From: Pseudomonadota bacterium
GTDB lineage: Bacteria; Verrucomicrobiota; Verrucomicrobiia; Limisphaerales; SXTU01
NCBI GenBank assembly: GCA_009924135.1
Contig: RFSE01000031.1
Location: forward strand, 1 to 43,694
Direction of reading: 5' to 3'
DNA length: 43,694 nt
The notes beneath the pieces are model-generated. The model had not been told where the DNA came from. It was given only the letters and a program-made list of their open reading frames with translations, and made no database searches. The position numbers and the translations under genes are program-made. Shown here piece after piece: positions 1 to 43,694 of the stretch. The first letter of the stretch is position 1. Every line of letters begins with the position of its first letter.

Positions 1-15
1 CAAACCCCGGCCGCC

Positions 16-119
16 CCTCGCCTGCCAGTGAGGGAACGGCTGGAACCGGAGCGCAGGGCGCTCCCAACCTCTCGCTACTGGCCCGGTTGACGTGGCCGTG
101 GATCGGTCCGGTGGCGAGG
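16..119 (+). ncRNA. Possible 3' part of a structured RNA (unidentified)
   Basis: The segment folds as a closed multi-arm structure. Bases 16-22 (CCTCGCC) pair perfectly with 113-119 (GGCGAGG). Inside, GCCAGT at 24-29 pairs with ACTGGC at 77-82, GAGG at 30-33 with CCTC at 68-71, and GGAGCGC at 48-54 with GCGCTCC at 58-64. A terminator-like hairpin follows directly at 123-175. No protein reading frame here looks real. It does not match RNase P, tmRNA, SRP RNA, 5S rRNA, or the cobalamin, TPP or SAH riboswitches as far as their conserved cores can be recalled. The window edge may cut its 5' end. The RNA call is an inference from pairing alone. Confidence 0.3.
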
Positions 120-122
120 AGG

Positions 123-175
123 AAAAGCGGAAATACAACCGCGCGAGAGATACCCTCCCGCGCGGTTGTGCTTTT
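123..175 (+). terminator. Bidirectional Rho-independent terminator
   Basis: An 11-bp perfect GC-rich stem (135-145 with 159-169) encloses a 13-nt loop. AAAAGC at 123-128 and GCTTTT at 170-175 flank it and are also complementary, so the hairpin can work on both strands. On the plus strand it would end whatever transcript enters from the left, including the structured segment at 16-119. Confidence 0.6.
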
Positions 176-253
176 GCAGAATCAGGAAAGCAGGAAGGCA
201 GGAATCGGAATTCACGACACGAACCTGTTTGGGGCACGTGGATGGAAGTGGTT

Positions 254-326
254 GGCAGGGCGGGGTTCACCCCGCTTCAACGTGATAAGCAGTTCAAACA
301 TTGAAACGGCGTGAACGCCGCGCCCC
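254..326. repeat. Imperfect palindromic repeat (GGCGTTCACGCC family)
   Basis: Arm 254-282 and arm 300-326 are imperfect reverse complements. Each arm also holds a small perfect hairpin of its own (GCGGGG-TTCA-CCCCGC and GGCG-TGAA-CGCC). A related single arm lies at 35033-35058. The element sits in the 508-bp stretch before the first gene. Bases 327-508 hold nothing else recognisable. Confidence 0.6.
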
Positions 327-508
327 ACGGGCTCACTCCCCCAAACGGACCGTCAGACACCAGTTGTGGCTTGCCCGATGCTGGTGACGTGGTTTGACGT
401 GCGTCTCGTTTCGCGCAGGTCGATCGCGCAAATCATTACAATGAAACCGAGAGCGACAACCAGGTTGCCGGAACGAACGCTGGGAAGTTAAACCGTTCGC
501 TCTAGCGA

Positions 509-2158: not shown

Positions 2159-2177
2159 TGTGCCCCATTAACGACAT

Positions 2178-2201
2178 GGTTGAACTGCTGTTTCTTCAAC
2201 C
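2178..2201. promoter_or_regulatory. Inverted repeat in divergent intergenic region (possible operator)
   Basis: GGTTGAA (2178-2184) and TTCAACC (2195-2201) form a perfect 7-bp inverted repeat with a 10-nt spacer, central in the 58-bp gap between two divergently transcribed propeller genes. Half-site spacing of about 17 bp suits a dimeric regulator. It could equally be chance; no regulator is encoded next to it. Confidence 0.3.
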
Positions 2202-2216
2202 TGTCAGATTCCGCCC

Positions 2217-3506: not shown

Positions 3507-3803
3507 TTCGGAGATAAACGGTGGTTAAAAGCGCAGCGGGGCTGTCGCACATGCCTCCGGTGACATTGATAGAAAGTACATTCCTCACCGCCAGCGGAGT
3601 CTTAAAGCGTGCAAACGGAAATTCCATAGTGGCCTGCGTCAGGCAGGACAAGTTCAGTGCTCGCACGATCGACCTGCCATCCATTCGCAAACCTTCGGTT
3701 GCTAAAAGTCAAGCTAATCAATCACCGCTTTTGAATAAACCGGGCTTTCCAAAGTCTCACCTTGGCTGTGATTACTGAAAATCTGAAACCTGAAATTGAT
3801 ACC

Positions 3804-9173: not shown

Positions 9174-10265
9174 TCAGGACTTTTGCAGCCGCTCACTGAT
9201 CTTCCCCATCGCCCACTGCGCGTGCTCCGCAATCAGCGGCTCGGGGTCACCCGCCGCCCGCTCCAAGGCGGGCAACGACTCCGCGCCGCCGATATTGCCG
9301 AGGGCCACGCAGACGTTGCGGAGAAGGCCACGGCGCTTGGTGCGCAAGATCGGTGAACCGGCGAAACGCTGTTTGAAACCGGCTGCATCGAGCGCTAGGA
9401 GTTCCAACAGGTCCGCCTGGGCCAGCCCGGCTCGCGCGTGCGATTGCATCAGGCGGCCTTCCGCAGCGAACTTGTTCCACGGGCAAACGGCCAGGCAATC
9501 GTCGCAGCCGTAGATGCGGTTGCCGATGGCGGGCCGGAGTTCCACGGGGATCGACCCTTTCAGCTCGATGGTGAGGTAGGAGATGCACCGTCGCGCGTCC
9601 AGTTCGAACGGCGCGGTAATGGCCTGGGTAGGGCAGGCCGTGATGCAGCGCGTGCAGGAGCCGCAACGGTTTTTCTCCGGCGCGTCGGCTTCCAGTTCCA
9701 GTGTGGTGATGATCTCGGCAAGGAAAAACCAGTTGCCCAGCCGGCGGCTGATGAGATTGGTGTGCTTGCCGGCGAATCCAATCCCAGCGCGTTGCGCCAG
9801 GTCACGCTCCAACAACGGACCGGTGTCCACGTACCAGAGCGACCGCGCCGTCGGCCCGCCGAGCTGGTCCACGAACGCGGTGAGTTCCTTCAGCGGCCCG
9901 GCAAGCACGTCGTGGTAGTCCGTGTACCGCGCATAGTGCGCGACGGCGCCAGTAATCAGTGAGCAGTGTTCAGTGTTCAGTGGACTCTGGCCAGTCGCCC
10001 CACTGAACACTGAACACTGCTTACTGATTACTTCCTCCCCTTGAGAGTAGCTGACCGCCAGACAAATCACCGTCCGAGCCCCCGCCAGCACCAGCTCCGG
10101 GTCCACGCGCTTGTTCGCATTCCGGGCCAGCCAGGCCATCTTGCCATGCTGGCCAGTGGCCAGCCAGCGCTGGAATTGCTCGCGGTGTTCCGGCGCGTCG
10201 GCGGAGGTGAACCGGCAGTCGTCAAAGCCCAGCTCGCGGGCCCGCTGGCGGATGGCCTCCCTCAC
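9174..10265 (-). CDS. queG: Epoxyqueuosine reductase
   Basis: 363 residues. QueG reduces epoxyqueuosine to queuosine in tRNA, using cobalamin and two [4Fe-4S] clusters. Both cluster motifs are visible: 'CGSCTRCITACPTQAI' and 'CDDCLAVCPWNKFA'. The body matches the family ('GKHTNLISRRLGNWFFLAEI', 'GSIPVELRPAIGNRIYGCDDC') and ends in a short HEAT-like tail. The GTG start at 10265 is chosen because it begins the conserved helix and overlaps the stop of aroK (GTGA). Oddity: residues about 79-105 (VISKQCSVFSGATGQ...) are encoded by an 80-bp palindromic element at 9952-10031, which is in frame and absent from ordinary QueG. Confidence 0.93.
   Translation of the reverse strand: MREAIRQRARELGFDDCRFTSADAPEHREQFQRWLATGQHGKMAWLARNANKRVDPELVLAGARTVICLAVSYSQGEEVISKQCSVFSGATGQSPLNTEHCSLITGAVAHYARYTDYHDVLAGPLKELTAFVDQLGGPTARSLWYVDTGPLLERDLAQRAGIGFAGKHTNLISRRLGNWFFLAEIITTLELEADAPEKNRCGSCTRCITACPTQAITAPFELDARRCISYLTIELKGSIPVELRPAIGNRIYGCDDCLAVCPWNKFAAEGRLMQSHARAGLAQADLLELLALDAAGFKQRFAGSPILRTKRRGLLRNVCVALGNIGGAESLPALERAAGDPEPLIAEHAQWAMGKISERLQKS
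9952..10031. repeat. 80-bp palindromic element inside queG, in frame
   Basis: Arms 9952-9983 and 10000-10031 are reverse complements at 31 of 32 positions, with a 16-nt loop. Each arm carries GTGTTCAGTGTTCAGTG units. The element is read through in the queG frame with no stop and adds about 27 residues between the 'AVSYSQGEE' and 'HYARYTDYHD' segments. Confidence 0.9.
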
Positions 10266-10807
10266 GACCGCGGCGGCTGTTGCTGGGCCGCGCGATAATT
10301 GTGCAGGACGTGCGCGGCGATTTCCTTGAGCGAACGCTGCTCGGTGTTGACCAGCACATCGGCCTGTTTGTAAGCGGCTTCCCGGGTCGCCAGCAGGTCG
10401 CGGATTTTGCCCAGCGGGTCCGGCCCTTGCAGCAGCGGGCGGTGGGTCTGGTGCTTGGTCCGCTGGTAAATGGTCTCGGGCGTGGCCCAGAGGCAGACGA
10501 CGAGCGAATGGTACTTGAGGCTGGCCAGGTTGGCCGGATTCACCACCAGACCACCGCCGGTGGAAATCACCCGGCCGCTCCAGCCGGTCATCTCGGCGAC
10601 CAGGTCGCACTCGAACTTGCGAAACGCCGCCTCGCCGTGCTGGGCAAAGATTTCGCTGATCTTGACGCCCGTACGCCGTTCGATCACCTCGTCGGTGTCC
10701 ACGAACTCGAACTGGAGTTCGGCGGCGACCAGCCGGCCCACGGACGATTTCCCCGCGCCCATGAACCCGGCCAGCGCGATGTTGCGAATCTGGCGTGGCA
10801 CGCTCAT
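10262..10807 (-). CDS. aroK: Shikimate kinase
   Basis: 181 residues. It phosphorylates shikimate at the 3-hydroxyl using ATP in the chorismate pathway; cytosolic. Walker A 'GFMGAGKSSVGR' lies near residues 14-25. The shikimate-binding 'DTDEVIE' and 'FRKFE', the glycine-rich 'STGGGLV' and the lid arginine in 'RPLL' are all present. The ATG at 10807 gives the normal length; the open frame upstream to 11857 has no homology. The stop overlaps the queG GTG start, so aroK-queG form a coupled pair. It is divergent from serA with about 230 bp between. Confidence 0.93.
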   Translation of the reverse strand: MSVPRQIRNIALAGFMGAGKSSVGRLVAAELQFEFVDTDEVIERRTGVKISEIFAQHGEAAFRKFECDLVAEMTGWSGRVISTGGGLVVNPANLASLKYHSLVVCLWATPETIYQRTKHQTHRPLLQGPDPLGKIRDLLATREAAYKQADVLVNTEQRSLKEIAAHVLHNYRAAQQQPPRS

Positions 10808-11038
10808 GGCTTGAGCATGGCGCACCGGCGAAAGGGAGGCACGAAGTTTCAGCCGGGAACCGTGGCAATTATTGTTTGGTGCGCGGCGGGATCGGAGGCC
10901 AATCGCACCGCTCCCGCCTCCGGCGCGACCGGCACTCCGCACCCAACCGCGCTCCCACCCCTGACAATTTAAGGGACCCGTCCGCCGGATGAAGATTTGA
11001 CCCGCCCCCTGCCCTCTCCTAAAGTCCGCGCCTTGATT

Positions 11039-13725: not shown

Positions 13726-13804
13726 GGATTAAGCCGGAACGATCACGAGTAAGATTAAGAAACCCAGCCGTATTGCTTCTTACTCTTTCTCGTACTCTTA
13801 ATCC
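13726..13804. repeat. Imperfect palindrome upstream of thiD
   Basis: GGATTAAG...ACGAGTAAGATTAAG (13726-13759) is imperfectly complementary to 13779-13804 (CTTACTC...CTTAATCC). It fills nearly all of the 94-bp gap, and its right arm ends two bases before the thiD ATG, so it covers the place of the ribosome binding site. Confidence 0.65.
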
Positions 13805-13806
13805 CC

Positions 13807-14592
13807 ATGCTCCCCATCGCCCTCACCATCGCGGGCTCCGACAGCGGCGGGGGTGCCGGCCTCCAGGCCGATCTCAAAACATTCGCCGCTCTCAGGGTCC
13901 ACGGCACCACCGCCGTCACCTGCCTGACCGCCCAGAATCCCCGGCGCGTCTCCGCCATCCAGGCCGCGCGGTCCACGATGGTCCGCGCGCAAATCGAAGC
14001 GGTCTTCGAGGAACTGCGTCCGGCGGCCGTGAAGACCGGGATGCTGTTCGATGCTGCCATCATCCGCGAGGTTGCACGCTTCTTTCGTGAGTTGAGCGGT
14101 CCGAAACCTCCACTTATCGTCGATCCCGTGATGATCGCCACCAGTGGGGCCAGCCTGCTCAAGCCCGCTGCCATCCGGGCCTTGCAGGCCGAGCTGCTTC
14201 CCCTCGCCACCCTCGTTACGCCGAACCTCGATGAGGCCGCCGTCCTGGTGGGCCGGAAGTTGGAGTCGGTCGAGGACTTGCGATTCGCCGCGCGTGCGAT
14301 CCATCAGAAGTTTCAATGTGCCGCGTTGGTCAAGGGCGGTCATCTACGGGGCTTGCGCGAGGCGGTGGATGTGTTCTTCGACGGCGGGACGGAGTTGCTG
14401 CTCTCCGCCCCCTTTGTGCGCGGCATTTCCACCCACGGCACCGGCTGCACCTATTCCGCCGCCATCACCGCCTACTGTGCCCGGGGCCGCACACTGTCCC
14501 AGGCCGTCCCGCTCGCCAAAAAGTTCATCACCCGCGCCATCACTCACAGCGTTCGCGCCGGCGGGTACTCAGTTTTGAACCCATTCGCCTGA
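13807..14592 (+). CDS. thiD: Hydroxymethylpyrimidine/phosphomethylpyrimidine kinase
   Basis: 261 residues. ThiD phosphorylates hydroxymethylpyrimidine twice for thiamine synthesis. Ribokinase-like motifs are clear: 'AGSDSGGGAGLQADLKTF' at residues 8-25, 'VKTGML', 'IVDPVMIATSG', 'LVTPNLDEA', 'LVKGGHL' and the catalytic 'HGTGCTYSAAI'. Length is normal. No other thiamine gene is adjacent and no TPP riboswitch is visible. The upstream gap is occupied by a palindromic repeat, which may affect initiation. Confidence 0.94.
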   Translation: MLPIALTIAGSDSGGGAGLQADLKTFAALRVHGTTAVTCLTAQNPRRVSAIQAARSTMVRAQIEAVFEELRPAAVKTGMLFDAAIIREVARFFRELSGPKPPLIVDPVMIATSGASLLKPAAIRALQAELLPLATLVTPNLDEAAVLVGRKLESVEDLRFAARAIHQKFQCAALVKGGHLRGLREAVDVFFDGGTELLLSAPFVRGISTHGTGCTYSAAITAYCARGRTLSQAVPLAKKFITRAITHSVRAGGYSVLNPFA

Positions 14593-16185: not shown

Positions 16186-17001
16186 GTGACCAGCCCAGCG
16201 CCCAGTGTGCTGCTATTGATTCCGGCCTATAACGAGGAGGAACGCATCGAGCCAACCCTTCGTGAGTATGCTGCGTATTTCCGCGCCCATTACTCCGGCC
16301 CCTTCACCATCCTCGTCGTGCTGAACGGCTGCCGCGACAACACCCTAGGGGTCGTGCAACGCGTCGCCAAAGATTTCCCTGAGGTGCAGGTCGAAAACTT
16401 CCCCGCCCCCATCGGCAAGGGGGGAGCGCTCATCGAGGGCCTCCGCCATTCTCCGAAGGCGGAACTCATCGGCTATGTGGACGCCGACGGCGCCACACCG
16501 CCCGCCGCCTTCCATGCGCTCATCGGACATACGCAATGGGCGGACTGCGTGATCGGGTCGCGCTGGCTCGAAGGAGCGGTGTTGCACCAGGCGCAACCGT
16601 GGTTCCGTCGTTTCACCAGCCGCTGTTTTCACGCCGTGGTGCAGGGGCTGTTCTGGATGGACATCAAGGACACGCAGTGCCCGGCGAAGATCGCCCACCG
16701 CCACGCCATTGTGCCCATCTACGACCACCTCCGTATCGCGGATCTGGCGTTTGATGTGAACCTGCTCTACTCGCTCACGCACGCCGGGTTCAAGGTGCTG
16801 GAAATGCCGACGGAATGGACCGACAAGCTGGGCAGCAAAGTCACCAGCTCCCTCTTCCGTTCCTCGGCCATCATGTTCTTCTCCACGGTGCGGTTGCGAC
16901 TGGTCTATTCGCCGTTTTACGAAAGACTGCAACCGCTCCGCTGGGTGGGTGACCGGCTCTACCGCGCGTTACGCGCACCGACGCTGAAACGCGCGAAGTG
17001 A
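16186..17001 (+). CDS. Family 2 glycosyltransferase (polyprenyl-phosphate sugar transferase-like)
   Basis: 271 residues. The GT-A fold is shown by 'LLIPAYNEEERI' at the N-terminus, 'VLNGCRDNT', the metal-binding 'YVDADGATPP' and 'DTQCPAKI', which resemble dolichyl-phosphate glucosyl/mannosyl synthases (ALG5-like). It probably transfers a nucleotide sugar to a lipid phosphate at the inner membrane. A GTG at 16186 is chosen because the longer frame (from 16006) would run through the RNA candidate and its terminator. It converges on the flippase gene, and its stop is immediately followed by a palindromic repeat. Confidence 0.88.
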   Translation: MTSPAPSVLLLIPAYNEEERIEPTLREYAAYFRAHYSGPFTILVVLNGCRDNTLGVVQRVAKDFPEVQVENFPAPIGKGGALIEGLRHSPKAELIGYVDADGATPPAAFHALIGHTQWADCVIGSRWLEGAVLHQAQPWFRRFTSRCFHAVVQGLFWMDIKDTQCPAKIAHRHAIVPIYDHLRIADLAFDVNLLYSLTHAGFKVLEMPTEWTDKLGSKVTSSLFRSSAIMFFSTVRLRLVYSPFYERLQPLRWVGDRLYRALRAPTLKRAK

Positions 17002-17118
17002 GTTCAAGGTTCAAGGTTCAAGGTTTCAGGTTCAGAGTTCCAAGCCCGTCGGTGGTGCCAGCACGCGGCAAGCGTCAATCCGCCGACTTTGAACCTTGAA
17101 CCTTGAACTTTGAACTTC
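17002..17118. repeat. Palindromic repeat of GTTCAAG units between convergent genes
   Basis: Arm 17002-17040 consists of repeated GTTCAAG-like heptamers. Arm 17085-17118 is its imperfect reverse complement (CTTGAAC units). The glycosyltransferase stop abuts the left end. The flippase runs into the right arm, which encodes its last residues (KFKVQGS), and stops in the loop. Confidence 0.85.
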
Positions 17119-19340: not shown

Positions 19341-19422
19341 CCCCGTAGTCGCAACCTTCAGGTTGCGCACACAAACATCGGCACGGAAAGTGATCCGCAA
19401 CCTAAAGGTTGCGGCTACGGGG
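19341..19422. repeat. Palindromic repeat (GCAACCTTTAGGTTGC family)
   Basis: Arms 19341-19367 and 19396-19422 are reverse complements at 25 of 27 positions, with a 28-nt loop. Each arm also contains an inner hairpin, CAACCT/AGGTTG. It lies between the M20 deacylase stop and the glycosyltransferase start. Confidence 0.85.
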
Positions 19423-19426
19423 TGGC

Positions 19427-20623
19427 TCATGGCTGGTCACGGAGGAATTTGACCAGCAACCGCGTCGCCCGTTCAAGCTGCGCCAGCTCCACCCACTCGT
19501 CCGCCGTGTGCGCCTGGGCAATATCCCCGGGTCCCAGCAGGACACTTGGGATGCCCCCGCTGGCCAGCACCGCCGCATCGGAGAAATAATCCACCCCTTG
19601 CGGCAGCCGTTGGCCGGCGCAACGCATGAGCTGACGGACCACCGGCAGGTCGGGATCGGTTTCCATCGCGGGACATGGCGCGTTCTTCGTGTCGGACAAC
19701 GTCGCGTCCACCCCGAGACGGCTCAACAAGGCGTTGAGTTCCTTAAACACTCCGGCATCCGATTCACCCGGCACGGTGCGGCGGTCGATGGTGATTTCGC
19801 ACTGATCGGGCACGATGTTTGGCTGCCGGCCGCCCGCGATGGTGCCGACGTTCACGGTGGCGTGGCCAAGCAGCGCATGCGTGTGCCCCTTCAACGTGGC
19901 GGCGTACGTGGTCTCCAATTCCTCCACCACGCGGGCCATGGCGTGAACGGCGTTCTTGCCAAGGTGCGGCTTGGAACCGTGCGCCGACTTGCCATGGGTG
20001 GTGATGCGGAGCCACAGATCGCCCTTGTGCGCCGTGACTACTTTCAGCCGCGTCGGTTCGCCCACGATGGCCAAGTCCGCTGCAATCGTAGCGCACGCAG
20101 CCTTGCCCGCGCGAACCGTCCCGGCGGAAGACAAGGCGGGCAAGGCTGCCCGCGCTACGAGCGCCCGGCTCCCGCTCTGATTGTTCTCCTCGTCCACGAG
20201 CGCGGTGAGAATGATTTCGGTCTCGTGTGGCCGGGCCCCGCCGGCTGCGATTTCGAGCATCGCCGCGAGATAGGTGGCAATGCTCCCCTTCGTATCACAG
20301 GCCCCCCGACCATGCAGGCGGCCCTGTTTCACGACCGGCTTGAACCGGGCCTCACCATCCACGCCCACCGTGTCCATGTGCGGGGCAAGGAGGATGCGGC
20401 GGGAAACCTTGCCACCGGACGGGGTGAGGTGAATGAGCAGATTCGAGCGACCGGGAAAAACCTCCTGCCATTTCAGTTCCAAGCCCGCCCGGTCAGCGGT
20501 GAAGGCGAGGAAGTCCGCCACGCGCCGCTCGCCGGTGAGGTCATCACGCCCCGACAAGAACGCAGGATTCACGCTGGGCAACGCGATCAGTTCGCGTAGC
20601 AGTTGATGAGCGGCGAGAGGCAT
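19427..20623 (-). CDS. M20-family deacylase (ArgE/DapE-like)
   Basis: 398 residues. Metal-binding and catalytic segments of M20 amidohydrolases are clear: 'LLAPHMDTVGVDG', 'GRGACDTKGSIATYLAA', 'LVDEENNQSGSR', 'VGEPTRLKVVTAHKGD', and a C-terminal histidine in 'AQAHTADEW'. It is closest to acetylornithine deacetylase / succinyl-diaminopimelate desuccinylase relatives; the substrate is not certain. Oddity: residues about 155-179 (ARAALPALSSAGTVRAGKAA) are encoded by a 73-bp palindrome inside the gene; other ArgE-like proteins have only a few residues there. ATG 20623 is chosen; an upstream in-frame ATG at 20680 is less likely. Confidence 0.9.
   Translation of the reverse strand: MPLAAHQLLRELIALPSVNPAFLSGRDDLTGERRVADFLAFTADRAGLELKWQEVFPGRSNLLIHLTPSGGKVSRRILLAPHMDTVGVDGEARFKPVVKQGRLHGRGACDTKGSIATYLAAMLEIAAGGARPHETEIILTALVDEENNQSGSRALVARAALPALSSAGTVRAGKAACATIAADLAIVGEPTRLKVVTAHKGDLWLRITTHGKSAHGSKPHLGKNAVHAMARVVEELETTYAATLKGHTHALLGHATVNVGTIAGGRQPNIVPDQCEITIDRRTVPGESDAGVFKELNALLSRLGVDATLSDTKNAPCPAMETDPDLPVVRQLMRCAGQRLPQGVDYFSDAAVLASGGIPSVLLGPGDIAQAHTADEWVELAQLERATRLLVKFLRDQP
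20087..20159. repeat. 73-bp palindromic element inside the M20 deacylase gene, in frame
   Basis: Arms 20087-20110 and 20136-20159 are reverse complements at 22 of 24 positions, with a 25-nt loop. The core is GCAGCCTTGCCCGC. The element is open in the host frame and adds about 24 residues between 'GSRALV' and 'AADLAIVGEPT'. Confidence 0.85.
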
Positions 20624-20710
20624 CGGTCCCGGTGAAGGTAGGCGGCAACCCGCGCGGTGTCGAGCCGACGCATGTTTCATTATTGCGGGCGAATTTGCCA
20701 CTATCCCGGC

Positions 20711-20778
20711 GTGCCGGTCTCCGACCCGGCGCGAACCAATCGAAGACCTGAACGCGCCGGATCGGAGATCGGCGCTCC
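20711..20778. repeat. Complete palindromic element, GCGCCGGTCTCCGACCC family
   Basis: Arm 20711-20733 pairs with 20753-20778. The same element, including the loop-edge sequence GCGCGAACCAA and GAACGCGCC, occurs inverted at 38171-38241 within a coding region. Here it is intergenic, in the 263-bp gap between the M20 deacylase and the DUF2135 gene. Confidence 0.85.
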
Positions 20779-20886
20779 GTCCACCCGCAGCGACTTCCGC
20801 CAGACTCGGGTGGCACCCGCCGTGCGGGGGCTTCGAGCGCGAGGGGCTGTTCAACGTCGCGCCGTCGTGCTTCACTGGTTCGTCAC

Positions 20887-22310: not shown

Positions 22311-22448
22311 CCGGAGCGCGGCTGTGTCCCGCTCGGCGCGGGATCAGCCGCAGCATCGTCAGAAAGCCGAGCGGGGGGGCTTAACGCTTCAACACCCCTG
22401 CCAGACGCAGCCGCTGCGGCTGGTCTCCGCGACACAGCCGCGCTCCGG
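22311..22448. repeat. 138-bp palindromic repeat (CGCGGCTGTGTC family)
   Basis: The outer 18 bases (22311-22328) match the reverse complement of 22431-22448 exactly, and the inner CAGCCGCAGC at 22345-22354 matches 22412-22421. A larger interior separates the arms. It lies in the 256-bp gap between the DUF2135 gene and the next hypothetical gene. Confidence 0.85.
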
Positions 22449-35058: not shown

Positions 35059-35067
35059 CTGGCCGCG

Positions 35068-38000
35068 CTACCTCGCCCGGATGAAAGCCAGCAGGTCCGC
35101 CATGTCCTGGGGCTTCAGCGCCGCCTCCAAACCTTCCGGCATCAGCGAGAGCCCGGAGCCCAGCAATTGTTTCAGGTCGGTGCGGAGGATGGTCTCCTCG
35201 GAGCCGTCCGCGCCGCGCATTACGAGGTTGTTCGGCGTCTCGGCGGTGATGATGCCGGTGAACTCGCGGCCCGACTTCGTCTCAGCCGTGTAGGCGAGGT
35301 AACGCGTTTCCACGGCCGCGTTGGGGTCGAGGATCGCGGTGAGCAGCCAGTCGGTGTCGCGCGTGGTGACTTGCCCGAGGTCGGGGCCGATCTCGCGGCC
35401 CTCGCCCTTGAGCTTGTGACAGACGCCGCAATTCTTGGTGAACAGCTCGCGCCCGCGCGTCTCGTTGCCCGCGAGCGTGGCGACGATGGCGTAGTCCTTG
35501 ATGACCTTCGCGCGGTCGGTATTGGTGGCGGTAAAAAGTTTCGCGGCGCGATCGCGGAGTTCAACCTGCGTGTGGGTGGTGAGCTTCTGTCGCTGGACGG
35601 GACTGATTTGCGTGGGGACCACCTGCCCGCGCTCGATGGCAGCGAGGAGGGTATCAATCCAAGCTGGGCGCGAGAGCAGAGCGCCAACGACGGCCTCGCG
35701 GAGCGCAGGACTGTGCGCCTTCCAATCGGCGAGCAGGGCGGCGGCGGAATCGGAGCCGCCAAGCTTGGCCAGCTGCGCGACGGCGGCGGACTGGATTTCG
35801 GCGGGCTGCTGGGGCTTGAGGAGCATGGTGAGGGTGACGAGGTCTTCGGCGCGTCCACTCGGACCGCGACCGAGGAGGGTGATGGCTGATTGCCGGCTAC
35901 CGATTGCCGATTGGGAAGTAGCTAATGTGCGGGCTTCGGCAAACAGGCTGGCTTGCTTCTCGATTGAAGCTCGAAGCGCGGGTTCTGACTCGGCAGCGAA
36001 CTGGCTCAATGTCTTGCCTCGTTGCGAAAGGCCATCAAGGAGCGTGGCAATGACGCCTTGCTTCCACGCAGGTGGCGACGGTTGGTAACCTTTGTCGAAG
36101 TAGTCCAATACCGTGCGCAAGCCGCGCACGTCATTCTCGGCGAGTGTTTGTCGAACCACGGCTTCGGCAAGCCACTGCGGAGGAAGAGTGTGGGCGCTGT
36201 AGGTGGCTGCGCTGAAAGTCTCTCCAGCGCAGCCGGAGAGCGAACTGATGATGGCCGTTTGCAAGCGCGGGTCAGTGACGGCGGGCATGGCGAGCGAAGA
36301 AAGGGAGCCGGCTGCCATTCGCTTGCTCCAACCGCTCAGTTGCCCCGCGCTCAGAGCGAGCTGGAAGTAAACCCGAGCCGATAACTTCTCTCCGCGGTCT
36401 CGAAACGAAGTCAACCCTTCACCTTGGAGCGCAGCCTCCGTGAGTGTTGGGAGAATTGGTTCAAGAACCCGGAAGAGCTGTTCAAGAACGCCATCCTGCT
36501 TATCGCCGAACACGAAGCCGAGTGTCCCCGGTGCCAGCGCGTTCATGCCATCGAGGGTGCAGAGTGCTTGCATTCGCGCCTTCGGATTCATCGAGGATTT
36601 CACGAGTGTTTCCAATGGCTTCACTGCCTCCTTGTCTTTCCGCTCCACCAACAGGCGTTGTGCGGTGTCGCGTTGCCAACCGCTCGGGGAGTCGAGGGCG
36701 GCAACGAGCTGGGCAGTGTTCAGTTTGGCGAGGTTCGGAACTGGGCGGAGCGGTTGGTCCATCGGCACGACTCGCCAGATTCGCCCTTTGTCCGCGCCGG
36801 CGCGGATGTCGAGGCGGGCCTGGGTCTCGGGAGCGATCCACTCGGGGTGCTCCAGCACGAAACGGTAGAAGTCGGCGATGTAGAGCGCGCCGTCGGGGCC
36901 GGTCTTGAGCATCGTGGGGCGGAACCAGTTGTCGGTGCTGGCGAGGAATTCGCGGTCCTGCTCGTCGAGCGCGCGGTGGCTGGTGAAGCTCACGCCGTCG
37001 GGTTCGAGCACTTCGCGGTGGACGAGGTTGTGCACCGGCTCGCTGATGAAAACGCTCGTGGCGAAGGCCGGGCCGAAGAGGTCGTCGCGGTACGGCGTAG
37101 GCGAGCAGCCAGAGGTGACATGGCCGACGGCCTGCGGCTGGTTGAAGCGGATGGGCGGCACGCTGATGGGGTAGCAGCGCGTCGGGTCCGGATAGTTGGC
37201 CAGCATCTGCTTGCTGGATTTCACCGCCAGGTGCGGGTTGCGGCGGAGGTAACGGTCCGGCAGCCAGTAGTGCCAGAGCCAGGTGGGGTTGTTGTTGCCG
37301 AACCAGTTGCCCCAGTCGTCCCGCCGCCGGCCAAACTGCGTCTGGCCCTCGACGGCCTCGAACTCGCCAGTGTCCGGGCGGAAGCGGAAATCCCTGCCCG
37401 AGATGGAGGTGCCAGTGTTTGAGAGTGTGAGGGTGTGAGCGTGGGCGGCTCGTTCACTCTCAGACCCTGTCACACTCACACTCCTCACCGTCCCTCCGCT
37501 GTCGCCGTTGGCACCGTAGATCCAGTTGTCCAGGCCCAGTTCAAACCCGTTGAGGCGGTGCTGCTGGTTGCCTTCGCGGAAGCCGGTGAAGAGGACCTTC
37601 ACCACGTCGGTCTTGCCGTCGCCGTCGGTGTCTTCGGCGTAGAGGATGTTCGGGGCGGCGGCGATGAGGACGCCCTTGCGCCAGGGCATGACACCGGTGG
37701 GAAACGGAAGGTTGTCGAGAAAGACCGTGGCCTTGTCGTAGGTGCCGTCGCCATGGGTGGATTCGAGAAATTTTACGCGCCCACCGGCCTTGCCCTTGCC
37801 ATCCATGCCGAGCGGGTAGTCCGGCATTTCGACAACCCAGAGCTTGCCGTCTGCACCCCACTCGAAGGCAACGGGACTTTGCACCAACGGCTCGGCGGCG
37901 ACCAGCTCCACGCGGAAGCCGGGCTTGGCCTGGAAGCACGCCTGTGACTCGGCCGGAGACTTGGGCGGCGGCATGTCGAAGGCGATGAGTTCGGAGAAGG

Positions 38001-40047
38001 ACTTGTGCCAGACGTGATCCGGCAGGTGCGCGGTGTCCTCGTTCTGGACGAAGAGCTGGCCGTGATGGAACCACGCGCCGTTGTTGCGGTGGGGGCCGGT
38101 GCGGACGAAGGGCGGGATTTCCCGCGAAGCGGGAATTGGTGATGGGGAATGGGCAATCGGGGCTGACTTCGGAGCGCCGCTCTCCGAGCCGGCGCGTTCG
38201 GGTGACGGGTTGGTTCGCGCCGGGTCGGAGACCGGCGCTCCGCGCTGCTCGTGGAGAACCTTGTGGGACCAGCCGGCGGTCCAGCCGAGGCCGGGCTTCA
38301 CGTCCCTGGCCCAGAGGTAGATGGCGTACTCCTTTTCGTTCGACAGGATGAGGTCGTCGAAGCCGTCGCCGTTGAGGTCCACGAAACGGAGGCCGTTGTC
38401 CTCGCCACGCTCGTTGACGAGGGCGAGGCCGGGTGGCAGGGCGTAAGGGAGATTCTTCCAAACGCGCTCGGTGTCAGACCACGCGAAGATGTTGTTCTGT
38501 TTGTCGTTGCTGACGAGGAGTTCGCAGCGGCCATCGCGGTCGAAGTCGCGGAAGCGGACGCCCAAGTCACGGCGTTTCCAAGGGCCGTCAGCGGCGTAGA
38601 TGGTTAGCAATCCACCGAGTGTCAGCCCAGAGAGCAGTGATTTATCATTGGCCCACTTGCCGTCACTGAAATTCCACGATGTTGCTTGGTGGCGGTTGAG
38701 AGCGAATGCATATGCGTTTCCGTGGGGAAGCCACGGGGCGAACTTGACGCCAGCATCCCAGCGGTTGTCCAAGCCTTCGGTGAAAGTTGTGACCATGTCT
38801 GAAACAACTTCAGCCCAAGATTGTGACTCTCCGCGCCAGACACGCGTTTGCTGATTTTCGACCGGACCCATGACCACGTCCTGAATGCCGTCATTGTTCA
38901 GGTCCAGCAGGCGCACGCCCTGGTCCATTCCATTGCCAGCTCGCAGGGCATTTGATTTCAAAAAATTCCCATTCAACCGCTCCACCGCCTCTTTGAACGT
39001 CAGGAACTTCACCTTCTTCCCGTGCGTGCGCTCGGCGTGGTCGATGAACTGGATGATCTGGTCGCTCCGAATCCAGCCGTGCGGGTGGAAGACGAAGGTG
39101 AAGACACCTTGCGCCCGGACGACGGCGTCGAGTGCGAGTTGCCAGTCGGTGACGGTGGCGGCGTTGGTGGGGCCGTGGGCGTTGAAGGCCTCCCAGTCGC
39201 TTGGTACCATCACGGGGAATTCCCAGCAGGTGCGGTTGATAACGTAGGGATAGGGATAGTCCTCGATGTAGGTGGCGAAGTTGGCGAGGGGCTTTTTGGT
39301 CAGGGCGTTGGTCGTTGCTGGGAAGTATTTACGAAATGTCGAAGGGCGAATTTCGAATGGTGAATCCTTGGTTCGAGCCGCGTCCGGCGGGGAGACTCGA
39401 CGTTCGCCATTCGCCATTCGGAATTCATCCGTCAGGAGGCACATCACGGAGGAGTCGGCCTGGAGGAAGTTGCCGCCGGGCGAGGTGTGGTTGAAAATCT
39501 CGGCGTAAAATCGCGGGCTGGGCGAGTTCATCGAGTCGCAGCAGGGCATGCGGAAGGCAACAGGCTTGTTCCCCGGCACCTGGTTCAGCAGGTCCACGCC
39601 GCCGTGGTAGGTGTTCCAGGCATTGGTGAAATCACCCTTCTGCAACAGCGGGCACGGATGCGTGAGCCCGTGGACTTCGAGCGAAAGGCCTTCCTTGAGC
39701 CACTTCTGGAGCTGTGGGTCGGACGGCTCGATGGCGTTGGCGAAGATGCTCACAGGCGCGCGGCCATCCAGCTTCTTCAGGCGGTTCAGGATCGGGCGGA
39801 GAAAGGCCTCGTACTTCTGCGAGTCCCTCATGTCATCAACGGCCAGGATAACGACGGCCTCGACGCCCGGCTCGCCGACCCATTGCGGCGTGACGAGCTT
39901 GGGGAAGTCACGGTGCGGGTAAAACGGATTGTCCTCGTCGAGGTAGGCGAGGCGGTTGGCGTTGGTGGAGAACGGCGCGGCGTTGGCTCCCGGGCCACCG
40001 GCAATCGCAAACAGGAGAAAAGGGAGAACAAACCGCAGCGGGTGCAT
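35068..40047 (-). CDS. Giant fusion: deacetylase-like / FG-GAP / PVC propeller / HEAT / c-type heme protein
   Basis: 1659 residues with signal peptide (MHPLRFVLPFLLFAIAGGPGANA). Order: polysaccharide-deacetylase-like domain (about 55-360; 'VVILAVDDMRD', 'EVHGLTHPCPLL' with the HxxxH metal pair); FG-GAP-like calcium loops (about 380-560; 'DLNNDGIQDVV', 'DFDRDGRCELLV', 'DLNGDGFDDLIL'); TIGR02604-type propeller (about 705-1095; 'PGFRVELVAAEPLVQSP', 'DTDGDGKTD', 'ISGRDFRFRPDTGEFEA'); HEAT-like helices (about 1100-1490); TIGR02603-type heme domain (about 1535-1659) with one CxxCH, 'NCGVCHKLKGEGREIGPDLG'. Probably a periplasmic electron-transferring sugar oxidase with a carbohydrate-processing head (inference). 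At least three palindromic elements lie in its coding region and are in frame. Confidence 0.85.
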   Translation of the reverse strand: MHPLRFVLPFLLFAIAGGPGANAAPFSTNANRLAYLDEDNPFYPHRDFPKLVTPQWVGEPGVEAVVILAVDDMRDSQKYEAFLRPILNRLKKLDGRAPVSIFANAIEPSDPQLQKWLKEGLSLEVHGLTHPCPLLQKGDFTNAWNTYHGGVDLLNQVPGNKPVAFRMPCCDSMNSPSPRFYAEIFNHTSPGGNFLQADSSVMCLLTDEFRMANGERRVSPPDAARTKDSPFEIRPSTFRKYFPATTNALTKKPLANFATYIEDYPYPYVINRTCWEFPVMVPSDWEAFNAHGPTNAATVTDWQLALDAVVRAQGVFTFVFHPHGWIRSDQIIQFIDHAERTHGKKVKFLTFKEAVERLNGNFLKSNALRAGNGMDQGVRLLDLNNDGIQDVVMGPVENQQTRVWRGESQSWAEVVSDMVTTFTEGLDNRWDAGVKFAPWLPHGNAYAFALNRHQATSWNFSDGKWANDKSLLSGLTLGGLLTIYAADGPWKRRDLGVRFRDFDRDGRCELLVSNDKQNNIFAWSDTERVWKNLPYALPPGLALVNERGEDNGLRFVDLNGDGFDDLILSNEKEYAIYLWARDVKPGLGWTAGWSHKVLHEQRGAPVSDPARTNPSPERAGSESGAPKSAPIAHSPSPIPASREIPPFVRTGPHRNNGAWFHHGQLFVQNEDTAHLPDHVWHKSFSELIAFDMPPPKSPAESQACFQAKPGFRVELVAAEPLVQSPVAFEWGADGKLWVVEMPDYPLGMDGKGKAGGRVKFLESTHGDGTYDKATVFLDNLPFPTGVMPWRKGVLIAAAPNILYAEDTDGDGKTDVVKVLFTGFREGNQQHRLNGFELGLDNWIYGANGDSGGTVRSVSVTGSESERAAHAHTLTLSNTGTSISGRDFRFRPDTGEFEAVEGQTQFGRRRDDWGNWFGNNNPTWLWHYWLPDRYLRRNPHLAVKSSKQMLANYPDPTRCYPISVPPIRFNQPQAVGHVTSGCSPTPYRDDLFGPAFATSVFISEPVHNLVHREVLEPDGVSFTSHRALDEQDREFLASTDNWFRPTMLKTGPDGALYIADFYRFVLEHPEWIAPETQARLDIRAGADKGRIWRVVPMDQPLRPVPNLAKLNTAQLVAALDSPSGWQRDTAQRLLVERKDKEAVKPLETLVKSSMNPKARMQALCTLDGMNALAPGTLGFVFGDKQDGVLEQLFRVLEPILPTLTEAALQGEGLTSFRDRGEKLSARVYFQLALSAGQLSGWSKRMAAGSLSSLAMPAVTDPRLQTAIISSLSGCAGETFSAATYSAHTLPPQWLAEAVVRQTLAENDVRGLRTVLDYFDKGYQPSPPAWKQGVIATLLDGLSQRGKTLSQFAAESEPALRASIEKQASLFAEARTLATSQSAIGSRQSAITLLGRGPSGRAEDLVTLTMLLKPQQPAEIQSAAVAQLAKLGGSDSAAALLADWKAHSPALREAVVGALLSRPAWIDTLLAAIERGQVVPTQISPVQRQKLTTHTQVELRDRAAKLFTATNTDRAKVIKDYAIVATLAGNETRGRELFTKNCGVCHKLKGEGREIGPDLGQVTTRDTDWLLTAILDPNAAVETRYLAYTAETKSGREFTGIITAETPNNLVMRGADGSEETILRTDLKQLLGSGLSLMPEGLEAALKPQDMADLLAFIRAR
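35880..35925. repeat. Repeat arm inside the 1659-residue gene, in frame
   Basis: GATTGCCG-type tandem units at 35889-35920 encode 'SQSAIGSRQSAI' between HEAT-like helices (about residues 1374-1389). They look like one arm of a palindromic family; no clear opposing arm is seen. Confidence 0.5.
37408..37490. repeat. Imperfect palindrome inside the 1659-residue gene, in frame
   Basis: GAGTGTGAGGGTGTGAG on the left faces CACTCACACTCCTCAC on the right. In the host frame it encodes 'SVSVTGSESERAAHAHTLTL', which interrupts the conserved stretch between 'GDSGGTVR' and 'ISGRDFRFRPDTGEFE' (about residues 852-880). Confidence 0.7.
38171..38241. repeat. Complete GCGCCGGTCTCCGACCC-family palindrome inside the 1659-residue gene, in frame
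   Basis: Arms 38171-38196 and 38216-38241 are reverse complements at 24 of 26 positions. It is an inverted second copy of the intergenic element at 20711-20778 and encodes 'APVSDPARTNPSPERAGSES' in a linker between the FG-GAP part and the propeller. A further repeat-like arm (38133-38160) abuts it. Confidence 0.9.
39338..39430. repeat. Imperfect palindrome inside the 1659-residue gene, in frame
   Basis: GGCGAATTTCGAATGGTGAA (39345-39364) faces TTCGCCATTCGCCATTCGG (39403-39421). In frame it encodes 'FRMANGERRVSPPDAARTKD' followed by 'SPFEIRPSTF', inside the deacetylase-like domain (about residues 206-236). Confidence 0.75.
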
Positions 40048-40147
40048 GGTGGATGGACGATAACCAGGCCCAGTCGCTTCGCACGAGGGAATTTACCGGC
40101 TGCGAGACTATTGACGAACGGGCGCGCAGACGCTTTCCTCGCGCCCC

Positions 40148-40759: not shown

Positions 40760-40786
40760 GACTGGTTGCAGGAGGACGATACGCAC

Positions 40787-40953
40787 GTGGCGGCAGGCAT
40801 CCTGCCTGACGTGGAGGGCGCGCATCTTGCCGCCCGGATTGGCGTGCGGAGTTCTGCGGCGTGGTGTTCTCCGGGAGTGAACGGAAAGCTGCGCGTCTCC
40901 TTCCGCCGGGCTGGAAGCCACGGCTCTACGGCAGGCAGGATGCCTGCCGCCAC
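40787..40953. repeat. Palindromic element with 22-bp perfect arms
   Basis: Arm 40787-40808 (GTGGCGGCAGGCATCCTGCCTG) and arm 40932-40953 are exact reverse complements (22 of 22), separated by 123 bp. Each arm also has an inner hairpin, CAGGCATCCTGCCTG. It fills the gap between the convergent DUF4337-like gene and the following propeller gene. Confidence 0.85.
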
Positions 40954-40973
40954 AGGGTTGGCCGGCGCCCCGG

Positions 40974-43289
40974 TTATTTCGGCAACTGGTTCAGCGTGTA
41001 CCAGAAGGTGTCGTTGACGAGCGACTCCCCTGCCCCGTCCTTCACGTCCAGGCTGCGCACCATCGTCACGTAGCCGGTCTTCCAGCCGGCCAGCTTGAGA
41101 CGGACTTTGAGCTTGTCCGGAGAAACGGTCGCACCGACGACCTTGATGACTGTCGCGGCGTTTTCCTTGCCGTCATGGTCCAGCTCCGGCGAGCCGTACT
41201 TGGCGTGGTACTTGAAGCCGTATTGTGTCACGTCGTAGCTCTCGGGGTCGGCGGCGGCCTTCGCTTCGACCGGCTGCGTGAACGTCAGCTCGAAGCCATC
41301 GGGCTGCGCGTGGACCTCCTTCACCTCGAACGGCAGCTTGCCCGTGTACTCGATGCGCTCCAGCGACGCGTTCAGCGGCGCGACGGCCTTCCACGAGACC
41401 GGCGCCTGCAAGCCACCGACGTAAAGCTTGCCGTCCGGCCCATACACGAGGCGGTTCACGCCCGACTGAAACTGTTTCAGGAACGGCCACACCGCGCCCT
41501 GATACTCGCCGTTGACCTTCTCCAACTGCACGCGCGTGACGATGGCGTTCTGGAAGTCGCCGACCATGAGCTGGCCCTTGAACGGCCCGAAGCGGTCGTC
41601 CGTGATCTCGGCGAAGCCCGTGGTGGAGCGTGCGAGCTTGTAGGGGAACCACACCGCCGGCGGGTCAAAGCGAGTGTGTTTGCCGTATTCCTCTTCCTTC
41701 GCCGGCCACGCGCTGGGATGGCCGTAGAACTTGCCCGGCGTGACGTGGTTCAGCTTGCACGCGGCCATCCACTGGCCCTGGTTCTCCGTCACAAACACGT
41801 CGCAGTCCGGACCGAAGGTGCCGATGCCGTTGGGCTCACGCAGGCCGGAGCAAATCGTGTCGAGCTTCTTGCCATCGGGCGAAATGCGCAACGCCCAGCC
41901 CATGTAAGCACTATCCCAACGCCCGCTGTGGCCGGCGTTGGCGAGCATGAAGTTGCCCGCCTTGTCGAACACGGGGCCGTATGAGAAGGCGTTGTAGTGG
42001 CCGGTGTAGCTCCAGCCCTGGCTGAGGCATTCGTACAGGTCGGCCTCGGCATCGCTGTCCTTGCTGCTGAGTCGGTAAAGCCCCTGTTTCGTACCGACGT
42101 AAATCTTCCCATCGCGCACCGCCACCCCCATGGGCTCGCACAAGCCACGGGCGAACCGGCGATAACGCACATCCTTGGCCGAACCCGTCGCCTTCTCGAT
42201 GATCCATACCTCGCCCGGCCAGGTGCAGACCACGAGGTCGCCATTGGGCACGAAGTCCATGCCGCAAACGAGGAGGTTTGCCTCCGGTGGTAATGGGAAG
42301 GATTCAGCTCGGAAGCTGGGAGTTGAAGCAGAACTGGGACGAGGAACTGCCCCGGCTCCGGAGGTTCTTGCAATGGCGACGTTCAGTTGAGACCGCAGGC
42401 CTCCAACCGCCGTCACCGTTGGTCTGCCTGAAAAGTCGGTTAGCAGTTCGAACCGGACAGGTTCGGAATGAGGCGGCACTTTTACCCAAACACGGCCCTG
42501 CGGGCTTTCGACCATGCGGCTCGCGACACCCTTTTCCGAACCTGTTTCCGTGACGATTGCCGCATCGTATAGCGCCTTCACCGAGTGAGAAATCAAGGTG
42601 GCAACGTTCGCTGGCTGAAGAGCGATGCTGGTTGCGTTCGGGCCGTTGAGAAGTTGAACCGGGACCTTGGAATCAAGACGCGGCCCGTCCTTTAGGGTTG
42701 CACCGTCCTCGGCATGGGCGAGAAAGAACAGGGACTGTCGGCAAGGGCTGATCTCATAAAGACGAAGGAAGCCGCCCTGCTTCATTGCGATGCTGGATTC
42801 ACGGATGCGCACAGTTTCATCTCCAGCGCGAATCTCGTAGAGGATTGCTGTCGAGTCCTTGCTTTGGGCGACTCCCAGAAAACGCGCGCCGGCCGGCAGT
42901 TTAGTCTCATCCTTCTCCGGCAGCTTCCCCACCGCCCACGGAAACACCGGCGGCATGGTCCACAGCACCGTGCCGTCGTTCGTGCTGATGAACGGGGCCT
43001 TGGGCAGGCCGAATTGCGGGCCGAGCAGCGCCAGGCCCTTGCCCGACCACACGGTGTGCGTGCGCAGCAGCGCGGTGTCGAAGGCCAGGTGCAGGTTCGT
43101 CGCCAGCGGCACCACGATGCTGCGCGTGCTCTGCGGCATCGGGGCCATGCGGAACGGCTGGTCCGGCGGGTCGTAGTACGGCGTAACGGGAGCGAATTTT
43201 TCCTTCGCCGACGGGGCACCGTAAACGGCGGGGGCGGCCAGCGACCAGAGGGCGCAGGCCACGGACAGGCAAACGAGCGGGCGACGCAT
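40974..43289 (-). CDS. Secreted glucose/sorbosone dehydrogenase-like propeller protein
   Basis: 771 residues with a signal peptide (MRRPLVCLSVACALWSLAAPAVYG). After an N-terminal beta region, residues about 340-650 form a propeller like soluble sugar dehydrogenases and the TIGR02604 group: 'MDFVPNGDLVVCTWPGEVWII', 'GLCEPMGVAVRDGKIYVGTKQGLYRL', 'GLREPNGIGTFGPDCDVFVTENQG', and 'GVNRLVYGPDGKLYVGG'. There is no CxxCH, so electrons would leave to a separate cytochrome; the neighbouring giant heme protein is a candidate. A C-terminal beta domain ends 'VKDGAGESLVNDTFWYTLNQLPK'. The cofactor is not identifiable. Confidence 0.82.
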   Translation of the reverse strand: MRRPLVCLSVACALWSLAAPAVYGAPSAKEKFAPVTPYYDPPDQPFRMAPMPQSTRSIVVPLATNLHLAFDTALLRTHTVWSGKGLALLGPQFGLPKAPFISTNDGTVLWTMPPVFPWAVGKLPEKDETKLPAGARFLGVAQSKDSTAILYEIRAGDETVRIRESSIAMKQGGFLRLYEISPCRQSLFFLAHAEDGATLKDGPRLDSKVPVQLLNGPNATSIALQPANVATLISHSVKALYDAAIVTETGSEKGVASRMVESPQGRVWVKVPPHSEPVRFELLTDFSGRPTVTAVGGLRSQLNVAIARTSGAGAVPRPSSASTPSFRAESFPLPPEANLLVCGMDFVPNGDLVVCTWPGEVWIIEKATGSAKDVRYRRFARGLCEPMGVAVRDGKIYVGTKQGLYRLSSKDSDAEADLYECLSQGWSYTGHYNAFSYGPVFDKAGNFMLANAGHSGRWDSAYMGWALRISPDGKKLDTICSGLREPNGIGTFGPDCDVFVTENQGQWMAACKLNHVTPGKFYGHPSAWPAKEEEYGKHTRFDPPAVWFPYKLARSTTGFAEITDDRFGPFKGQLMVGDFQNAIVTRVQLEKVNGEYQGAVWPFLKQFQSGVNRLVYGPDGKLYVGGLQAPVSWKAVAPLNASLERIEYTGKLPFEVKEVHAQPDGFELTFTQPVEAKAAADPESYDVTQYGFKYHAKYGSPELDHDGKENAATVIKVVGATVSPDKLKVRLKLAGWKTGYVTMVRSLDVKDGAGESLVNDTFWYTLNQLPK

Positions 43290-43386
43290 GGACTAAACTT
43301 GCAACGAGCCCCGCCCCAGCGCGATGCAAATTGCAGGGCACCGCACGGGACTCGAACCCAAGCATCCTTCCACCGACCACTGCTTT

Positions 43387-43450
43387 GGTCAGAAAAATCG
43401 GGGCAGAAAAATGGATCGAAGAAATCTTCTGACCTAATCTTTCTGATCAA
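43387..43450. repeat. Imperfect palindrome of GGTCAGAAAAAT units
   Basis: GGTCAGAAAAATCGGGGCAG and the following AAAAATGG (43387-43414) face 43424-43450 (ATCTTCTGACC...TTCTGATC). Non-coding. The rest of 43290-43694 holds no gene. Confidence 0.55.
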
Positions 43451-43616
43451 TTTTCGGGTTCACGGCCTGAGATGGTTCGCGCTGAAGCAGGCCGCCATAT
43501 GGACCTTCCACCGGTCATTAATTTCATCTGTGGCCGCCTTGAATCCTTGGAAATCCTCCTCACCTCTCGTTAGGGCGCATCTCAGTTTCTTGCACACCGG
43601 GAGGCCGCTTGGGGAG

Positions 43617-43647
43617 CCTTCTCCCTTTGCGGAGCAAGGGGAGAAGG
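43617..43647. repeat. Hairpin repeat of the CCTTCTCCC/GGGAGAAGG type
   Basis: CCTTCTCCCTTT (43617-43628) pairs with AAGGGGAGAAGG (43636-43647) at 11 of 12 positions, followed by GGCCGGAGGCCGG. This resembles a widespread bacterial palindromic repeat. It lies at the right window edge. Confidence 0.6.
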
Positions 43648-43694
43648 TGGCCGGAGGCCGGATGAGGGGTTGGGCCACCCTCGCCCACGCACGC

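Follow-up and report, generated by a model that had tools for sequence, protein, structure and literature searches.

The contig RFSE01000031.1 of the draft assembly GCA_009924135.1, 43,694 nt in length and hereafter called the window, carries fourteen sites in which two inverted arms enclose a loop, and the question that it raises is which process, or which processes, placed palindromes with such different arms in the same DNA. A preliminary description had considered them as elements of one plan lacking a visible mobilising enzyme. We found instead that two systems are overlaid in the window: ordinary REPINs (class A), i.e. pairs of inverted repetitive extragenic palindromic (REP) sequences, and palindromes whose arms are arrays of tandem units (class B). 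Precisely, we consider it probable that the class A elements are REPINs spread by REP-associated tyrosine transposases (RAYTs), and that the class B elements are small forms, devoid of a gene, of mobile palindromic elements that at full size carry one small gene between their inverted arms, of either the S23 family (PF05635, a four-helix bundle) or the GxxExxY family (PF13366).

All sites were evaluated with a gapped inverted-repeat score, the threshold being the maximum (10.0) found in 60 dinucleotide-shuffled 180-bp pieces of the window. Every one of the 14 listed sites is an inverted repeat, with scores from 11.5 to 30.5, above all 60 shuffles, and the palindromes are hence real, as had been claimed; the weakest ones (11.5-14) are those at 254, 13726, 37408, 39338, 43387 and 43617. 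With a strict ungapped finder we obtained 8 inverted repeats with a score of at least 14 in the window, whereas 50 shuffles gave 0.26 on average and 2 at most. The same finder gave 101 inverted repeats, against 3 in one shuffle, in a genome sample of 742,879 bases (window included, about 11% of the 6.68-Mb draft genome); since the sample is likewise rich, the window is typical of its own genome. A chance origin was rejected on these controls, and a density normal for random sequence is thus excluded. In the genome sample the arms of 62 out of 213 palindromes are periodic, with a period of 7 in 19 of them and of 9-11 in 30 (among the rows of period 11, at least five are the 22311 REPIN, at or near threshold); shuffled arms were judged periodic in 64 of 1065 cases, without a peak at 7. 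The window gave no Rfam match and no tRNA, and a profile search returned no RAYT, S23 or GxxExxY match within it. PADLOC detected no defence family.

The single plan proposed beforehand did not survive this analysis. Six sites (19341, 20087, 20711, 22311, 38171 and 40787) are REPIN-like hairpin pairs, as is probably the one at 254, and five (9952, 13726, 17002, 37408 and 39338) have arms made of 6-8-bp tandem units, with best periods of 7 (9951, 17001, 39341), 6 (13726) and 8 (37408, left arm). Similarly, the statement that no mobilising enzyme is visible holds for the window but not for its genome, in which we found one RAYT match, 16 PF05635 matches (14 over the cut-off) and 10 PF13366 matches.

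The genes of the two latter families lie between arms of the class B type. In the genome, inverted tandem-unit arms, with the units judged by eye, span 10 of the 16 S23 genes and 9 of the 10 GxxExxY genes. For a stricter arm test we searched this genome and loci from 55 other genomes (an automatic set plus 40 chosen regions; the loci compared bear L-numbers), with an arm threshold score of at least 14 and with five loci of each family left out for short flanks. Of the S23 genes, 60 of 72 have arms that reach the threshold, and of the GxxExxY genes 33 of 44 do, against 154 of 5112 mispaired flanks for S23 (3.0%), 76 of 1892 for GxxExxY (4.0%) and 40 of 1500 random genome positions. The best period of the S23 arms is 7 in 45 cases out of 60 and 8 in 11; that of the GxxExxY arms is 9-10 in 26 out of 33, with units ranging from 8 to 11 bp. 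No transposase was recognised between the arms, where the gene identified was either S23 or GxxExxY and other inner frames were not scanned. At non-orthologous sites, arm similarity tracks protein similarity both for S23 (rho 0.239, reached by 0 of 1000 permutations) and for GxxExxY (rho 0.238, 1 of 1000 permutations); the arms co-diverge with the protein clade in the two families alike. As a separate observation, L063/L067 of this genome (C358) has two GxxExxY domains in one open frame, with a single arm pair of CACCGCAGAGG units around both.

Sister species provide evidence of insertion. The S23 element L055 is 650 bp long with 56-bp arms, and its site is empty in 6 of 9 sister loci; the filled site has 2 bp (GA) more than the empty ones, a junction read by eye from shared stop and start codons, with the right flank aligned from about 34 bases on. 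Of the other three loci, one has a REPIN-like insert, one a gene insert and one is unalignable. The S23 element L054 is missing from 3 of 9 sister loci, with 0 bp extra relative to one of them and 1 bp relative to two; the same element is present in one sister, a clear but different gene-less palindrome in two (L320, L323), a weak palindrome in L324, and short stretches without palindrome in L317 and L321. Since the sites of both S23 elements are found empty in sister species, with 0-2 bp gained at the filled ones, we conclude that these elements insert. A check for target-site duplication gave 0 or 1 bp at L054 and 2 bp (GA) at L055, and the arms of both elements, each with empty sites in sisters, match perfectly or almost perfectly. 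Of seven sister loci, one shares the GxxExxY element L169; among the others, one holds 92 bp that include a gene-less palindrome, one a comparable stretch in which no clear palindrome is seen, and four have other inserts. In two orthologous gaps, S23 elements occur in some species and GxxExxY elements in others.

These data also bear on another explanation, in which slippage and chance inversion of simple repeats produce the arms, and the S23 and GxxExxY genes are passengers landing in repeat-rich gaps. In fact, heptamer arrays are known from several bacteria, and the gaps are variable and receive other genes too. Such a process is opposed, however, by the protein-specific period, by the co-divergence of arms and proteins, and by empty sites from which arms and gene are absent together, and we consider it quite unlikely.

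Regarding the arms after insertion, it had been asked whether they change together or independently. We compared orthologues with 76-97% identical proteins, taking the best-armed element as reference, and counted, over nine comparisons summed, 5 two-sided changes, 30 one-sided changes, 22 broken pairs, 332 unchanged pairs and 8 gapped cells, i.e. mostly independent decay. Since orthologous arms drift apart afterwards, the arms must have been made matching at or near insertion. The opposite candidate, that arms change together at one site, was rejected: a first test had given 39 of 42 pairs, with arms defined by their own matching; the L169/L126 pair included a below-threshold element; and the element at the LivKH site looks replaced rather than inherited (the left flanks of L085 and L094 are 95% identical, their S23 proteins 72%).

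The same counts concern a reading in which class B acts at the RNA level, as the intervening sequences (IVSs) of rRNA do: RNase III would excise the stem, insertions in operons would be tolerated and pairing would be selected. The S23 intervening sequences of 23S rRNA are described as cut out by RNase III (PMC4990558), and the elements read here sit between protein genes, often directly at stop and start codons, as such a reading would have it. However, on the S23-coding strand the mismatches comprise 32 G.U and 41 A.C pairs, and on the GxxExxY one 14 and 22, with no indication that wobble is favoured, and two-sided changes are rare beside one-sided and broken ones. An RNA-level role is possible, if on the unlikely side.

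Arms and loops behave differently in the two gene families. The S23-type gene-less family AAGCTCC has 12 copies (8 in a sister species, 4 in this genome) with common arms but not common loops; these loops resemble neither each other (0.24 against 0.23 for shuffled ones) nor the interior of L055. For seven loops of the TTCAGTG type, most of them very short, the value was 0.37 against 0.33 shuffled. The 8 gene-less copies of the GxxExxY type kept the arms and a loop of about 96 bp, and their loops gave 0.56 against 0.11 shuffled. In class A, the interior is conserved in family 22311, the only one examined (0.66 against 0.12 shuffled, 6 copies). Judging from the sequences, this suggests that in the S23 type it would be the arm that spreads, whereas GxxExxY-type elements and REPINs would spread whole.

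The class A elements are REPINs, a known kind of element spread by RAYT transposases. They are GC-rich, with a GTAG, GGAG or GTGG tag and a hairpin on each side, in two inverted copies; tag, hairpin and inverted pair were directly seen at 19341, 20086, 22311, 38170 and 40787. Their families are multicopy, each having 8-39 motif matches in the genome sample against 0-2 in shuffled sequence. The RAYT search suggested in the preliminary description gave one match in the genome (L001; 82 bits to the NCBIfam model 'REP-associated tyrosine transposase', whose cut-off is 80), which is flanked on both sides by copies of family 22311. In a sister species, a RAYT-like gene lies between copies of family 19341 (L348, with a Pfam match just below the cut-off), and a motif near the 38170 type brackets, by eye, a RAYT in L346; for families 20086 and 40787, no bracketed RAYT was seen among the RAYT-family loci examined.

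All palindromes could in principle be REPIN-like and moved by RAYT (Y1) transposases, with class B representing divergent REPs. RAYT-family matches occur in this genome and, across the genus, in 8 of 11 genomes, and class A conforms to this model; on the other hand, 3 of the 11 genus genomes, which are drafts, are without a match. Moreover, class B does not show the REP plan of tag plus hairpin, S23 and GxxExxY genes lie between arms of its type, and tandem-unit arms, judged by eye, bracket none of 16 RAYT-family loci (two of them below the Pfam cut-off); in L338, L340 and L348 a tandem-unit element is near the RAYT without spanning it. One REP system for all palindromes is thus largely refuted and very unlikely. 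Instead, as had been suggested among other possibilities, several parallel systems coexist, namely REPIN families with RAYTs and S23-linked and GxxExxY-linked palindromes, and one enzyme-linked REP family for all of them is excluded.

The association of gene and arms extends across several phyla for S23 and is found mainly in one order for GxxExxY. A scan of a genome collection gave at least 80 S23 loci; among the matches listed, these are mostly from Verrucomicrobiota and Planctomycetota, and also from Bacteroidota, Gemmatimonadota, Acidobacteriota, Cloacimonadota, proteobacteria and others. Among the same listed matches, arms with a score of at least 14 are present in 61 of 78 testable S23 loci (mispaired control 5.1%), and the best period is 7 in 50 of the 53 arms of 24 nt or more. 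An S23 match was also found in 24 plasmid records, and all the 13 loci that were retrieved (12 cyanobacterial and one from Gemmatirosa) have inverted arrays, mostly heptamers by eye, against 12 of 156 in the mispaired control; Nostoc, Calothrix and Anabaena plasmids are among those with arrays as arms around S23. Over 49,856 bases of a Nostoc plasmid, the S23-arm unit AGGGAGT also forms arrays at other positions, including one inverted pair. No S23 match was found in phage records. On the cyanobacterial plasmids L304 and L314, tandem-unit-arm S23 elements lie between cas6 and cas4, and in L309 an S23 element lies between cas10 and a Cmr3-family gene. L262 (CALQJI020000002.1), whose record bears the title Klebsiella pneumoniae, has an S23 element with arms identical in every letter to the arms of L094, a locus of the window's genus; the record looks like a mislabelled Verrucomicrobial metagenome-assembled genome.

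As for the proteins, GxxExxY bears the Pfam name PDDEXK_3, of the PD-(D/E)XK nuclease superfamily, and the D...E-x-K pattern is visible in its sequences. No nuclease fold is known for S23. Its solved relatives are 2gsc (E 3e-24) and, weakly, 2rld (E 0.007), with five chains each, by analogy with which S23 would be consistent with a five-membered ring. In the mechanism that we propose, the encoded protein would bind its own unit array and join the two arms. GxxExxY would cut the DNA at the element ends, and the whole element, loop included, would be copied. S23, as a ring-shaped nucleic-acid binder, would help host repair to fill a gap with copies of an arm and of its inverted partner, a route that would leave a fresh loop at each copying; this repair-assisted copying of arms we put forward as a doubtful, tentative step. 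Snap-back or template switching in host repair would fit the unrelated loops and the 0-2 bp junctions, and both the 12 S23-type copies with common arms and differing loops and the near-perfect arms of L054 and L055 argue for it; against a continuous copying of arms stands their mostly independent decay at orthologous sites.

A variant of this mechanism is DGR-like, i.e. modelled on diversity-generating retroelements: S23, as a homologue of the accessory protein Avd, would act with a reverse transcriptase copying the arms from RNA. S23 is in the same protein superfamily as Avd, PF05635 is described as resembling it (PMC10053308), and the NCBIfam Avd model matches 2 of 3 scanned S23 proteins, weakly (1e-7 and 9e-5) and below the cut-off. 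Unlike a DGR, however, the genome of the window has no reverse transcriptase match, and RVT_1 is found in 1 of 11 genus genomes, the other 10 (drafts 71-95% complete) being without a match. We consider this variant extremely unlikely, and a reverse transcriptase is probably not needed, because none was matched in the genome of the window.

Several points weigh against our interpretation of class B as the gene-less form of S23 and GxxExxY elements. At the threshold used, clear arms are missing from 12 of the 72 S23 genes and 11 of the 44 GxxExxY genes, and the orthologous loci among the 72 and the 44 are non-independent. Two class B elements, 13726 with a period of 6 and 37408 with one of 8, deviate from the period usual in S23 arms, although single S23 arms with a period of 6 or 8 do exist (L051, L163, L045, L146). 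The S23 and GxxExxY genes are many yet mutually divergent; since the S23 proteins of this genome share at most 57% identity, full-size S23 elements do not show the amplification of ordinary transposons, and they may arrive by horizontal transfer and be passengers. On plasmids, just 2 of 6 GxxExxY genes have arms with a score of at least 14, against 1 of 30 in the mispaired control, and no clean empty site was found for a GxxExxY element among the seven sister loci of the L169 site. The 'hot' gaps hold also ordinary genes without clear arms (L182, L191, L192, L194, L196, L333), hence repeated occupancy may reflect merely permissive gaps. A source for 20 loops was not found in the approximately 12% of the genome compared, a comparison of low power from which rows L213 and L219 were left out for improper loops. 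Finally, any role of the S23 and GxxExxY proteins in mobility is putative.

We describe below the single elements of the window, the palindromes without strand. Class B element 9951..10032 has 33-nt arms of TTCAGTG-type 7-bp units and a 16-nt loop, and lies in frame within a QueG-like open reading frame (ORF; 9174..10868, minus strand, PF08331 and PF13484) that is open throughout. In 8 aligned relatives of this site the frame is always open; clear inverted arms are present in 4, and a stretch of similar length with decayed arms in the other 4. Element 13726..13807 (core 13745-13793, score 12.0) is made of 6-bp units of the GATTAA/GAGTAA type, and elements resembling it occur in L007, L010, L011 and L041. 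A 6-bp arm period is also found in the S23 loci L051 and L163, whose S23 proteins are mutual nearest non-orthologous relatives; these two loci and 13726 possibly form an S23 branch with a shorter unit. The intergenic element 17001..17116 has GTTCAAG 7-bp units and a 66-nt loop; of 9 relatives compared at the orthologous site, 5 have a related or different palindrome, one has an insert whose right end carries an array, two have no palindrome and one is unalignable.

Two further class B elements lie within a 1659-aa ORF (35068..40047, minus strand), which contains 37408, 38170 and 39341 with its frame open. The first, 37408..37490 (core 37420-37480, score 13.0), has GTGTGAGN-type units, with period 8 in the left arm, and falls within the DUF7133 domain (aa 697-1096); units of this type also lie on both sides of the S23 gene in L045, in the same genome, where the arm pair scores only 11. 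The second, 39341..39433 (score 13.0), has 7-bp units of the GAATGGN/GAATTTC type (period 7 and 14). The palindromes of the window located in ORFs, i.e. 9951-10032, 20086-20160, 37408-37490, 38170-38242 and 39341-39433, keep the frame open and add amino acids to their hosts: QueG, an M20 peptidase and a DUF7133/FG-GAP/cytochrome c protein. Rickettsia palindromic elements likewise add amino acids within open frames. Two sites stand apart: the tandem-unit palindrome 43385..43450 (GTCAGAAAAAT, period of about 14 bases, score 11.5) is of uncertain class, palindromes of GTCAGAAAAAT units resembling it occur in L008, L011 and L017, and an S23 or GxxExxY partner was noticed neither for it nor for these; the short CCTTCTCCC hairpin at 43617..43647 (score 11.5) is outside the assignments of both systems. 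Hairpins and long palindromes of the CCCTCACCCCGGCCCTCTCCC type are recurrent in the genome (window 43617-43647, L013, L016, L029 by eye, and L059).

Among the class A elements, the REPIN 19341..19422 has a GTAG tag and CGCAACCTNNAGGTTGCG hairpins (8 motif matches in the genome sample against 0 shuffled), and 20086..20160, also with a GTAG tag, is within the M20 peptidase ORF (13 against 2). The REPIN 20707..20779 (gapped score 17.0) is of the 38171 family (10 against 0), and 22311..22448, with a GGAG tag, belongs to the family that brackets the RAYT (39 against 2). The REPIN 38170..38242 is of the GGAGCGCCGGTCTCCGACC type, to which the motif seen by eye around the RAYT of L346 is related, and 40787..40953 has a GTGG tag and CGGCAGGCATCCTGCCTG hairpins (11 against 0). 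The class A-like, imperfect hairpin pair at 260..321, of the GCGGGGTTCACCCCGC / GCGGCGTTCACGCCGC type (gapped score 14.0), resembles by eye the hairpins adjoining the RAYT in L341.

With respect to known systems, class A is like REPIN/RAYT in its tagged hairpins, inverted pairs, multiple copies and one family around a RAYT; GTAG-tagged REPs are reported also from the Verrucomicrobium O. terrae (PMC3733652). Class B, unlike REPIN/RAYT, is untagged and has arms of tandem units; in the S23-type family that was compared, the copies also differ in their loops. The GxxExxY-type gene-less copies resemble miniature inverted-repeat transposable elements in retaining arms and loop, but here no transposase is recognised and the full-size element carries a GxxExxY gene. 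The closest known system is the S23-bearing IVS of 23S rRNA. The one described in Coxiella burnetii, for instance, has one S23-family ORF in about 430 nt with terminal inverted arms of approximately 28 bp; tandem heptamers adjoin the ORF, and mobility was suspected by its authors and those they cite (PMC4990558). An S23 ORF between inverted arms with heptamers is common to that IVS and to our loci (60/72 in the arm test, 61/78 among the matches listed, 13/13 on plasmids). Unlike the IVS, the loci read here lie between protein genes; a genome has many of them, their heptamers are different, and both gene-less derivatives and empty sites occur.

The short tandemly repeated repetitive sequences (STRRs) of cyanobacteria are heptameric intergenic repeats. 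Others have been described as GGGAATC in Xanthomonas and GGGGA(T/C)T in Nostoc, with 70 and 75 convergent (inverted) array pairs in two Xanthomonas genomes and, in that account, generally without mobile-element association (PMC4692102); for the TAACTGA arrays of Beggiatoaceae, a tie either to a binding protein or to a mobile element was raised as a possibility (PMC4679880). Our arrays are like these in being 7-bp tandem arrays between genes, and unlike the account of PMC4692102 in being arms around S23 genes, the Xanthomonas and Beggiatoaceae arrays being compared by their published description. Among the open-licence papers we found none that connects inverted arms of tandem units, outside rRNA, with S23 or GxxExxY genes, and almost nothing in print on the GxxExxY family. 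Tentatively, and with somewhat less than even confidence, we propose a class of mobile DNA without a recognised transposase in which the propagated unit would be the arm, and of which STRRs, Xanthomonas heptamers, TAACTGA arrays and the 23S IVS would be S23-branch forms. In such a class the partner protein would set the period of the unit and not its sequence (mostly 7 for S23, 8-11 for GxxExxY), and each insertion would produce a pair of copied arms with a new loop between them, after which the arms would decay.

The proposed tie of palindromes to such small genes explains the presence of many unrelated palindrome families within one bacterial genome, and the GxxExxY family gains a candidate genomic role. 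The heptamer arrays of cyanobacteria, Xanthomonas and Beggiatoaceae and the rRNA IVSs have been treated as separate subjects, and the accounts cited do not settle their origin or function (PMC4692102, PMC4679880, PMC4990558). The link of arms with S23 may explain the puzzling seven-letter repeats of cyanobacteria and other bacteria, and the tie to one small protein family makes the origin and function of heptamer arrays directly testable.

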